A DNA stretch of 64,000 nucleotides from Shouchella clausii (GTDB lineage: Bacteria > Bacillota > Bacilli > Bacillales > Bacillaceae_D). Under the pieces are notes generated by a model that was not told where the DNA came from, ran no database searches, and saw only the letters and a program-made list of their open reading frames with translations. Location: positions 1,550,001 through 1,614,000 of the forward strand of contig NZ_CP019985.1 in assembly GCF_002250115.1 (NCBI RefSeq), written 5' to 3'. Of this stretch, positions 47,902-50,336 are shown one piece after another. How positions within the stretch are numbered: position 1 is the first letter of the stretch; each line of letters starts with the position of its first letter. A program made the translations under genes and the position numbers.

Positions 47902-49150
47902 TTTTTGGACGATAGTCGGCCATACGGCGGGAAGCCGGCTAAAGGCAAAATCGTTTATCATTTCTACAGTGGTGATCATGGCAATTGTTATTATTGCCAC
48001 AAACCTTTCATCGATCATCTCTGCATTTTCCGGAGATGAGGAAAATGAAGTCCAGCAAGTCGCTATTATCGATGAAACCGAAAACGCAGGGGATGTGGCA
48101 ACAATACTTGCAACTACCCACGAAGAATCGTTGTATTCATTTTCAGTCGTGGAAGATGCATCTTTGAAAGCGACTCTCGAAAGCGCCCGAGACGGCGACT
48201 ATGATTATGTCCTTCATTTAAATGGATCGCAAAGTGAATTAAACGCCACACTCTATGGCGGGGGCGATGATTACGAAGCGGTAGCTGCGATTGAGCAGGA
48301 AGTGCAGCGCGTCAAAGAAGCTGTATTAACGAGTGCACTTAATTTAAGCGAGTCGGACCTTGCCGCTATTTTTGAACCGATCTCTTTTGCCCAGGAGCCA
48401 TTGGAAGAAGGGGGAGCGATAGAGACGGAAGAATCGCAAATGCAGGCGTCCTTTACTGTATTAGGCGTGACCTATGTGTTGTTTTTTATCATTGTTTCTT
48501 TTGGTGTCATGATTGCCACAGAGGTAGCCGTCGAAAAGTCCTCTCGTGTGATGGAATTGATTGTTTCCAGCGTCAATCCGGTTGTGCAAATGTTTGGCAA
48601 ATTAGTCGGCATTGGTCTTGTCGGCATTGTCAATATGGTTGCAATTGGGGCAGCGTTAGTCATCGGTATGTTAGTTGGCGGGAATGAGATTGGCGAACTT
48701 TTAAGCGGCGATTTCATTGACATGAGTTTGCTCGGTTACGCGTTTTTCTTAACAATTCTTGGCTATTTCTTGTTTGGCGGCGTTGCGGCTACGTTGGGCG
48801 CCCTTGTCAGCCGAACGGAAGACGTCAATTCATCGATACAGCCACTGACCTTTATCGCTATGGCTGGATTCTTTATCGTTTCATTTGGTTTAAGCACTCC
48901 AGATGCGCCATTTATTACAGTTGCCTCTTATATTCCATTTTTCACGCCGCAGCTTTTGACAATGCGCATTGGTATGGGCGTCATTGCTGGCTGGGAAATT
49001 GCGCTCTTGTTTGCGCTTTTAATTGCAAGTGTGGTCGCCGTCAATATTTTGGCTGCCCGTGTGTATAAAGGCGGGGTTTTGATGTATGGCAAAGTGTCGA
49101 TGAAAGAAGGCATAAAGCAGGCGTTGGCTTTGTCGAAAAAGGAAAAATAA
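47894..49150 (+). CDS. yhaP: ABC-2 type permease (YhaP/NatB-like)
   Basis: A 418-residue membrane protein (B. subtilis YhaP has 419). One N-terminal helix (about 20-42), a large extracytoplasmic domain (about 45-180) and five to six C-terminal helices follow. The conserved EKSSRVMELIVSSVNPVVQMFGK segment at about 210-232 is typical of ABC-2 exporters. GGAGG lies 8-9 bases before the ATG at 47894, inside the end of yhaQ; the longer open frame upstream is not used. Confidence 0.88.
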   Translation: MNNFWTIVGHTAGSRLKAKSFIISTVVIMAIVIIATNLSSIISAFSGDEENEVQQVAIIDETENAGDVATILATTHEESLYSFSVVEDASLKATLESARDGDYDYVLHLNGSQSELNATLYGGGDDYEAVAAIEQEVQRVKEAVLTSALNLSESDLAAIFEPISFAQEPLEEGGAIETEESQMQASFTVLGVTYVLFFIIVSFGVMIATEVAVEKSSRVMELIVSSVNPVVQMFGKLVGIGLVGIVNMVAIGAALVIGMLVGGNEIGELLSGDFIDMSLLGYAFFLTILGYFLFGGVAATLGALVSRTEDVNSSIQPLTFIAMAGFFIVSFGLSTPDAPFITVASYIPFFTPQLLTMRIGMGVIAGWEIALLFALLIASVVAVNILAARVYKGGVLMYGKVSMKEGIKQALALSKKEK

Positions 49151-49163
49151 GCGCGGCAAAGGT

Positions 49164-49192
49164 TTGTCCTGAAGATACGAGTATGGTAAGAT
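49164..49192 (+). promoter_or_regulatory. Candidate promoter of the leader ORF and yidC2
   Basis: TTGTCC (49164), a 17-base spacer and TAAGAT (49187). It is just behind the yhaP stop and in front of the AAAGGAGG at 49216. Confidence 0.45.
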
Positions 49193-49231
49193 GGAAATAT
49201 TGTGAATCGAGGCAGAAAGGAGGCGGATGAT

Positions 49232-49513
49232 GTGATTGATCTTATAATGGAGTTGCCGATGCTATGGGTCAGCGTAGCCCCTGTCATGGTTGTGGTCGCG
49301 ATGGTTGCCTATGAAAATTTTAAGCTCCGTCGCATGCACATGCGGATGAAGCGTACAGTGCATGACACGGATAAGACAGGCTGTGTTGACATGACTCCAG
49401 TCCGCCCCTTGGCGCTGTGGGCGCGGCCAAAAATTCCTTATTTCCGCGACAAAGGCTGCCAAGACGATGATGGTCCTTACCCTTGTTGCATGCACCAACA
49501 AATAGCTGCATAG
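49232..49513 (+). CDS. MifM-like leader protein (candidate translation-arrest sensor for yidC2)
   Basis: A 93-codon ORF ending 25 bp before yidC2. AAAGGAGG is 8 bases from the GTG. One N-terminal membrane segment (about 8-27) is followed by a basic stretch (K31 to R41), giving the N-out, C-in shape of B. subtilis MifM. The C-terminal region carries W63, R65, F71, R72 and an acidic D78-D79-D80-G81-P82 cluster. MifM likewise has W/R residues followed by DEEDAG, where ribosomes stall. The stop lies inside a stem-loop that covers the yidC2 ribosome site. MifM monitors membrane insertion and relieves that block when insertion fails. Overall sequence identity to MifM is low, so the call rests on layout. 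Confidence 0.6.
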   Translation: MIDLIMELPMLWVSVAPVMVVVAMVAYENFKLRRMHMRMKRTVHDTDKTGCVDMTPVRPLALWARPKIPYFRDKGCQDDDGPYPCCMHQQIAA

Positions 49514-49527
49514 ACAACAAAGGGAGG
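49480..49527 (+). promoter_or_regulatory. Stem-loop sequestering the yidC2 ribosome binding site
   Basis: CCCTTGTTG (49480-49488) pairs with CAACAAAGGG (49515-49524, one bulged A). ATGCA (49490) and TGCAT (49507) extend it inward. The right arm includes AAAGGG of the yidC2 AAAGGGAGG site. The left arm starts one codon after the GP of DDDGP in the leader ORF, so a ribosome paused there would melt it. Confidence 0.65.
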
Positions 49528-49538
49528 AAAAGAAAGAA

Positions 49539-50336
49539 ATGAATAAAAAGAAAGTCATGCTTACGCTTAGCGTTGTAATGGTTGCTTTCGTTTTAGCAGC
49601 CTGTAACACGAATGAACCGATCACAGCTGAATCAACTGGTTTTTGGAACTCGTTTTTCGTCTACCCGATGTCATTTTTGATCACCTTTTTTTCTGATTTG
49701 ACAGGGGGACACTTTGGTTGGGGCATCATTATTGTTACCATTTTGATCCGTTTGCTGATTTTGCCCCTTGCGTTAAAGTCGCAAAAAAGCACACGGGCGA
49801 TGCAGGCGCTCCGTCCTGAAATGCAAGAAATTCAGGAGAAAATGAAAAAAGCACAAGGCAATCCGGAAAAACAACGGGAAGTACAAGCCGAGATGTTGAG
49901 CCTTTATCAAAAACACGGTGTGAATCCTGCTGCTGGATGTTTGCCTGCGCTTGTGCAAATTCCAATCGTAATGGCACTTTATTTTGCGATTATGCGGACC
50001 GAAGAAATTGGCGTTGGCCCAGCTAGTGCGTTCCTCTGGTTTAACTTAGGCAGCCCTGACTATATTTTGCCTGTCATTGCCGGCATTACGACGTTTATCC
50101 AGTTTAAAATGTCTATGAGCCAAATGCCAGCGAACCCATTGGGCGAAGGCATGCCGAATCCAATGAACATCATGCTTTACATTATGCCAGCTATGATTGT
50201 GATTGCTGGAATTACATTGCCATCTGCGCTTGCTCTTTATTGGGTAGTTGGTAACTTGTTTATGATTGTTCAAACGTACTTTATTATTGTCCGCCCTAAT
50301 GTGACAAAAGAAGAAGTGCAAAAAGACAAAGCTTAA
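49539..50336 (+). CDS. yidC2: Membrane protein insertase YidC2 (YqjG type), lipoprotein
   Basis: A 265-residue YidC/Oxa1 insertase that places proteins in the membrane with or without SecYEG. The lipoprotein signal ends at C22 (VLAAC). Five membrane helices follow, with the hydrophilic-groove Arg in LIRLLILPLALKSQKS and the cytosolic hairpin EMQEIQEKMKKAQGNPEK. The end is the short VTKEEVQKDKA tail. AAAGGGAGG lies about 11 bases before the ATG. The MifM-like leader and stem-loop upstream suggest it is the inducible second insertase, the other copy being elsewhere. Confidence 0.93.
   Translation: MNKKKVMLTLSVVMVAFVLAACNTNEPITAESTGFWNSFFVYPMSFLITFFSDLTGGHFGWGIIIVTILIRLLILPLALKSQKSTRAMQALRPEMQEIQEKMKKAQGNPEKQREVQAEMLSLYQKHGVNPAAGCLPALVQIPIVMALYFAIMRTEEIGVGPASAFLWFNLGSPDYILPVIAGITTFIQFKMSMSQMPANPLGEGMPNPMNIMLYIMPAMIVIAGITLPSALALYWVVGNLFMIVQTYFIIVRPNVTKEEVQKDKA

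Follow-up and report, generated by a model that had tools for sequence, protein, structure and literature searches.

Translation-arrest peptides encoded upstream of yidC genes have been counted as three, namely MifM, ApcA and CliM, in the available portion of a 2026 paper (PMC13183943). The sections on MifM accessible to us (PMC4423224, PMC6037786) give R69, I70, W73, I74, M80, N81 and the DEED stretch at 86–89 as required, and place the stall at codons 89–92; for CliM the same stem-loop logic has been shown (PMC13183943, in the same portion). According to the accessible part of a survey of Firmicutes (PMC10987492), 572 MifM sequences were recovered from 592 genomes by clustering combined with an acidic window, defined as a five-residue mean charge below −0.3 between residues 70 and 100, and the median spacer is 54, measured differently from the spacers given below. 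In the literature that we searched we found no description of MifM in clausii or pseudofirmus, or of YqjG/SpoIIIJ in alkaliphiles. Here we compare with these systems a short upstream open reading frame (uORF) that precedes yidC2 in the window, the stretch of 64,000 nucleotides of Shouchella clausii DNA that was analysed; all features described lie on its + strand.

The uORF and its neighbourhood

The uORF has 93 codons and runs from a GTG start to a TAG stop (49232–49513), separated by 25 nt from yidC2 (49539–50336). The yidC2 product is a YidC insertase of 265 aa with a lipoprotein-like N-terminus that matches PF02096 (E 3.9e-54), and its closest solved chains are of YidC 2, the nearest being 3wo7, 'Membrane protein insertase YidC 2' (E 3.6e-90), and another 3wo6. 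Its Shine-Dalgarno sequence (SD), GGGAGG, is read from the sequence at 49522–49527. The window genome (4.52 Mb) has two PF02096 matches, yidC2 and spoIIIJ, the latter adjoining rpmH, rnpA, jag and mnmE (neighbours named by eye), and two YidC matches, some of them partial, are found in 41/41 genomes of the family.

Upstream of the uORF, its own SD, AAAGGAGG (49216–49223), can be read from the sequence, and SD-like purine-rich sites also precede the starts chosen for the uORFs of relatives. By eye there is a promoter-like TTGTCC-17 nt-TAAGAT at 49164–49192, which we regard as weak because the promoter scan listing omits it; a TA(A/T)(G/A/T)AT box lies 31–49 nt 5' of the chosen start in 17 of the 20 printed loci. 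Just before the GTG, the sequence ATG ATG TGA (49227–49235) presents two out-of-frame ATGs followed by a stop that overlaps the uORF start, and these ATGs may tune uORF initiation. The 5' neighbour of the uORF is an ABC-2-type permease gene; judged by eye, the equivalent gene is permease-like in 14/20 printed loci and something else in 6/20.

By hydropathy, a single N-terminal membrane segment occupies residues 8–26 (49253–49309). It is preceded by D3 and E7, positions that are D or E in 21/21 members, and the 12 residues that follow it contain four basic residues (zero to five in other members); these flanking charges therefore predict an N-out/C-in orientation for the window uORF. The predicted arrest sequence is the conserved tail R65-P-K-I-P-x3-D73-x4-D78-D-D80 (49424–49471), which ends in the acidic patch D78-D79-D80 (49463–49471), with D78 kept in 21/21. 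A simple charge count gives −0.6 over CQDDD (residues 76–80), below the threshold used for MifM. The spacer between the end of the hydropathy peak and D80 is 54 residues; across 21 diverse uORFs, MifM included, it is 50–62, and MifM measured likewise on its residues 4–92 has 59. The uORF has no match in Pfam or NCBIfam, Rfam gave no result over 49000–49700, and a PDB search gave no result with the window uORF and unrelated chains only with the family profile A1 described below.

Conservation in the family

A search of 60 relatives with the window uORF gave a match at E 1 or better in 39, many of them weak, and the loci of the best 30 of these were read. The next gene 3' of the uORF is yidC-type in 30/30, at a gap of 25–44 nt in 29/30 and of −4 in the remaining one, L012. 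In that locus (L012:1507–1810, from G006, an assembly 86% complete) the uORF is frameshifted soon after RPKIPGL, either by sequencing error or by decay. Profile A1 was made from 21 of the 30 loci, leaving out 8 near-copies and L012, and it matches 38 of the 41 genomes of the window's family (those without a match being G007, G033 and G465). Sister loci found with the uORF of L011 belong to Shouchella shacheensis, xiaoxiensis, oshimensis and miscanthi.

Within the uORF, constraint is strongest on the tail. Its family consensus is (R/H/K)-P-K-I-P-x3-D-x4-D-(D/E)-x, and mean pairwise identity over 22 rows, taken per 10 columns, reaches 0.62 around RPKIP, compared with 0.35–0.42 in the membrane segment and 0.15–0.18 in the linker. 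Pooled over six Shouchella pairs, which share sequences, pN/pS is 0.15 in the tail (residues 62–80) and 0.39 in both the membrane segment and the linker. The residues kept are P66 and K67 (each 21/21), D78 (21/21), D73 (20/21), P69 (19/21) and I68 (18/21). A motif of the RAPP type, (R/Q/H)-(A/G/D/S)-(P/G/S)-(P/G), does not occur after residue 50 in any of the 21 rows, two of which have other xAPP strings, TAPP (L017) and DAPP (L021); the CliM motif K-Y-x-I-W occurs in 0/21 rows.

The region 49478–49486 has one extra base relative to sister species. The extra base follows the DDDGP codons in L001–L004, the window's clade, to which this frameshift is restricted among the family loci read; it shifts the stop and turns a PFFVV-like C-terminus into PYPCCMHQQIAA or PYPCCMHQMIAA, so that the window uORF ends in PYPCC. 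In spite of the frameshift CUUGUUG is retained and still paired in all four loci, the frame being lost and the hairpin arm kept, and the last codons therefore appear to serve the RNA rather than the protein.

An earlier note on this DNA had described a 93-codon ORF placed 25 bp upstream of a YqjG-type yidC and a tail with W63, R65, F71, R72, D78–D80 and G81-P82, and both descriptions are accurate. Where it called for conservation of the reading frame and of the tail above the membrane segment, 38/41 family genomes match the uORF profile and the identity and pN/pS values above give the tail the higher conservation. Its proposal that the tail echoes the W and R residues of MifM fails in relatives, since W63 is kept in 2/21, F71 in 7/21 and R72 in 6/21. 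As for the prolines and the Cys pair, which it had considered unlike MifM and possibly part of an independent arrest sequence, P66 and P69 lie at the heart of the motif, with P82 retained in 13/21, but P84 and the C-terminal Cys pair are products of the frameshift and for this reason were rejected as part of the arrest sequence.

A hairpin predicted to mask the yidC2 Shine-Dalgarno sequence

Folding brings together a left arm within the uORF, CCCUUGUUG (49480–49488), and a right arm, CAACAAAGGG (49515–49524), that overlaps the yidC2 SD; the two pair with one bulged A, and the SD is masked, as the earlier note had claimed. The stability on which that claim depended is confirmed by the fold of 49463–49545, at −19.3 kcal/mol with a z of −3.10, a stability reached by 1 of 200 dinucleotide shuffles. 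At least three of the five SD bases are paired in the minimum-energy folds of 28 of the 30 family loci, the exceptions being L006, in which bases just 5' of the SD are paired, and the frameshifted L012. The z of the hairpin is above −1.2 in 7/30 (−0.5 to −1.1 in L011, L019, L021, L022, L026 and L027, and 0.4 in L012).

RNAalifold found zero pairs on the MAFFT alignment A5, we think because the left arms are out of register there, and we therefore relied on an alignment-free test in which arms were swapped between 19 loci. Cognate arms have a mean of −18.4 kcal/mol and swapped arms one of −12.8 kcal/mol, and the observed sum is reached in 0 of 20,000 permutations, which shows that the hairpin arms co-evolve. 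The mean z of the left arm is −3.46 against dinucleotide shuffles and −2.44 against synonymous recoding. The arms of the window are middling in the swap test (rank 7 and 8 of 19, z −2.3 and −1.8), and its left arm stands at 8/200 in both shuffles. We also folded 18 further loci, consisting of L043 from the window's family and 17 from other families of the order (L114, for which no start was found, was dropped): 14 have at least three of the marked SD bases paired, three have two and one has none. For some of these (L046, L099 and L109) z is near zero, in shuffles that kept base composition only.

Taking the first base of the last acidic codon as the origin, we expressed the position of the left arm in nt, in a folded stretch that begins 45–48 nt before the stop, a choice that restricts the positions the arm can take. 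On this scale the start of the arm lies between −1 and +11 and its end between +17 and +25 in 20/21 loci, L019 being the sole exception, and the stop codon is spread over +18 to +42. In the window the arm with its extension spans +5 to +20, the stop is at +42 and the yidC2 SD at +53 to +58. With the last acidic codon in its P-site, a ribosome covers the mRNA to about +15 to +17 (toeprint distance), and one stalled there would therefore open most of the arm without occluding the SD. Termination at 49511–49513 would instead bring the ribosome onto the yidC2 SD. Taken together, these distances favour a stall at the acidic patch over coupling through the stop codon, and the placing of the arm beneath a ribosome stalled at the patch, which the earlier note had put forward, agrees with the predicted geometry in 20/21 loci.

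Two types of uORF in the order

The uORFs that precede yidC2 in the loci read from the order are of two kinds, here called R-type and W-type. R-type tails include RPKIPSVFDKGQSDDE (family f1), QRKIPSKSDKSHSDDEE (f77), KRKIPGLRDRVHDCDEED (f5), RRKIPMREQASRTDED (f12), FRKIPTKEIGNNVLDED (f65), YRKRPTKETTLDEED (f10) and YRKKPVKEKNNDEED (f78), and W-type tails, among them that of MifM, resemble WINSKIKRKESPDDDSD. By eye, uORFs that combine a hydrophobic N-terminus with an acidic patch are present in 35 of 40 order loci (L055–L094) picked as likely yidC2 copies and not drawn at random; none was seen by eye in L073, L077, L078, L089 and L094. The main text of the MifM survey (PMC10987492, available in part) does not contain the words Shouchella and clausii, and R-type uORFs may be included in its supplementary lists. 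An RPKIP-type motif was not found described as an arrest peptide in the literature searched.

A test profile was made from eight R-type members of f5, f65, f72, f77 and f78, with f1, f10 and f12 held out. The held-out members scored above all 100 tail shuffles in 10/10 cases, and we therefore regard the R-type as one family. Applied to W-type uORFs, the R-type profile placed 6/18, MifM among them, above at least 95 of 100 tail shuffles, and for MifM itself 5/100 score as well. Conversely, under the W-type profile 7/18 R-type uORFs scored above at least 94 of 100 tail shuffles, and for the window 0/100 shuffles are as good, although at 5.6 bits. For the remaining cross-type members at least 8 of 100 tail shuffles score as well or better, and at the level of sequence the signal between the two types is weak.

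In a tree of 64 YidC proteins, in which the YidC2 of G072, encoded behind a close MifM look-alike, stands in for that of B. subtilis, SpoIIIJ and YidC2 are split at 97/86. When rooted on SpoIIIJ, W-type YidC2 proteins form one group (100/99) nested among the R-type, with f65 outside and f12 sister to the W-type at 96/74, both on long branches. An AU test does not reject the R-type as a single group (p 0.162), and with f12 and f65 on long branches we therefore treat R-type ancestry as only a lead and not a result. It is possible, though we consider it doubtful, that tails of the RxKxP-plus-acid kind are the original and most widespread YidC monitors of Bacilli and that MifM is a later offshoot whose contacts were rebuilt around W73 and M80-N81. 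If true, the circuit would have retained its RNA switch and acidic patch and swapped the motif that grips the tunnel.

At E 0.01 or better the R-type profile A6 has matches in 85 of the 397 genomes of the order. Those at 1e-4 or better fall in f1, f5, f10, f12, f65, f72, f77 and f78, and each of these families contributed members to A6. Within the class, 17 of 299 genomes have a match, and 8 of these belong to other orders. Six of these 8 were opened (L175–L180, from four families, E 2e-8 to 8e-4) and have tails that are alike, for example YVRRKQPQERVSTDEDD or CVRRKCPVKESSTGDEE; the other two matches (E 0.007–0.008) are inside long frames. In L175–L180 a shorter yidC-like gene, named by eye and with its start chosen by script, begins inside the RRKxP...DE uORF, the overlap being roughly 50 to 160 nt, and the arrest-like tail is just 5' of the start of that gene.

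The three genomes of the window's family without a match to profile A1 fall into two kinds. In G033 and G465 (L150, L152, L165, L166) a W-type uORF, with the tails TKRKESPEDDGDY and VKRKESPEDDGDY, is present before a W-type YidC2 that clusters with family f25 at 100/97 (the G465 protein being a fragment), and the uORF type therefore tracks the YidC2 type there. This suggests that uORF and yidC2 were replaced together as one unit. The gene before the W-type uORF of G033 resembles one for a small spore protein and not a permease. In G007, a reduced genome of 2.6 Mb from the window's own genus, yidC2 follows the same permease gene with no such uORF between them; the hairpin is also lost, and the yidC2 SD is free in a different leader. 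This leader (L149:850–965) retains the promoter-like box TATGATAAG and, by eye, has a terminator-like hairpin between the box and the yidC2 SD.

Discussion

From the comparison of sequences, namely the constraint on the ORF and its tail, the co-evolving arms, the near-fixed distance from patch to arm and the linkage to yidC2, we infer arrest, its exact codon and its release by YidC. We propose that the uORF very probably encodes a YidC-monitoring translation-arrest peptide that controls yidC2 and works as MifM does with another motif. The uORF product would be the monitoring substrate, its N-terminal segment being built for insertion by YidC. At low YidC capacity no pull would act on the nascent chain, and the RPKIP...D...DDD tail would arrest the ribosome while the acidic patch sits at the peptidyl-transferase centre, the P-site being at about D80 to P82, a position transferred from MifM (PMC4423224, in the part available). 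Stalled over the left arm of the hairpin, the ribosome would expose the yidC2 SD and the second insertase would be switched on. With insertion working, the pull on the chain would end the stall, the ribosome would depart, the hairpin would reform and yidC2 would be silent. The literature read contains no stall, toeprint or reporter data for this uORF family.

The retention of yidC2 without the uORF in one genome, G007, counts against arrest, as do the weak sequence link to MifM, the middling arms of the window, the lack of pairs in the RNAalifold result, the seven family hairpins with weak z and the limit that the folded stretch sets on arm positions, and there are other ways of accounting for the conservation that we see. 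Plain translational coupling, in which any ribosome that reaches the uORF stop opens the hairpin for yidC2 and no arrest takes place, would make use of the same hairpin, which is real and conserved, and in 17/21 loci the stop, at +18 to +27, falls close to where the left arm ends, so that a terminating ribosome could open the hairpin. However, coupling needs no constraint on the tail, the part of the protein that is most constrained, and the distance of the arm is steadier to the acidic patch than to the stop; in the window, with its stop at +42, a terminating ribosome with the usual footprint would reach the SD and not free it. We therefore think coupling unlikely. An alternative explanation of the uORF conservation itself is that it encodes a functional small membrane protein, for example a partner of YidC, and the membrane segment is indeed conserved too (identity 0.35–0.42, pN/pS 0.39). 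Such a protein would not be expected from a linker that is free to vary between genera (identity 0.15–0.18), from last residues that are frameshifted in the window's clade with the RNA arm intact, or from a sequence that no Pfam or NCBIfam family matches, and of the explanations considered we find this the most improbable.

It is also conceivable that the uORF encodes an arrest peptide whose signal is not YidC capacity but, for example, pH, ions or membrane potential, and that YidC2 is the response. The sister loci belong to Shouchella, a genus known for alkaliphiles, which would be in keeping with a signal of this kind. A yidC-type gene is nevertheless next in 30/30 family loci, the membrane segment of the window is predicted to lie N-out/C-in, and this kind of tail recurs in eight families of the order and resembles tails seen in other orders. 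The spacer, too, fits published YidC monitors (PMC10987492, accessible part), and sensing of another signal seems to us very unlikely. Under the preferred reading, arrest released by YidC, several of these loci are useful beyond the window. The natural deletion in G007 and the natural replacements in G033 and G465 bear on what the switch is worth, and the frameshifted C-terminus makes constraint on RNA and on protein separable within one gene. R-type and W-type uORFs form matched pairs, with the same circuit and acidic patch and different tunnel contacts, that bear on how nascent chains silence the ribosome.

Comparison with known systems

Like SecM and VemP, the uORF would combine an arrest peptide, masking of an SD and release by export in one general scheme, but SecM and VemP monitor secretion, precede secA or secDF, mostly have longer spacers and carry other motifs. 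ApcA of actinobacteria is likewise encoded by a uORF 5' of a second yidC and differs in having an R-A-P-G motif at its stall site, of which there is none in the window family. CliM (uC_KYxIW) of Clostridia, as portrayed in the accessible part of its description, shares YidC monitoring, a membrane segment, an SD-masking stem-loop and conserved residues away from the peptidyl-transferase centre; it differs in its K-Y-x-I-W motif, no acidic patch is described in that part, and its comparison with the window is by motif alone.

The closest likeness is to MifM of Bacillus subtilis, which controls yidC2 (yqjG) and also has a uORF of about 90 codons directly 5' of yidC2, with spoIIIJ elsewhere in the genome of the window, one N-terminal membrane segment at 54 (window) or 59 (MifM) residues from the acidic patch, that patch near the C-terminus and a stem-loop that masks the SD. 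The earlier designation of this locus as a MifM-like leader thus stands for the type of working (segment, tail and SD-masking hairpin) and not for a residue match. The MifM tail, as in 3j9w, is RITTWIRKVFRMNSPVNDEEDAGS, and R69, I70, W73, I74, M80 and N81 have no conserved counterpart in the window family, the core of which is P-K-I-P...D before the acidic patch, with the last codons serving the RNA arm. A residue-by-residue match was rejected, R-I-x-x-W-I-x5-M-N being absent and the acidic patch alone clearly shared. Profile–profile comparison gave an hhalign probability of 24%, in an alignment over the acidic patch, and the W-type profile A3 finds the MifM of 3j9w at E 0.67, fifth after four chains of an unrelated ceramide synthase subunit. 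Set beside MifM, ApcA and CliM, this distinct core, which occurs in eight families of the order and of which there are hints in other orders, may represent a fourth sequence solution to the monitoring of YidC, or the parent of one of them.
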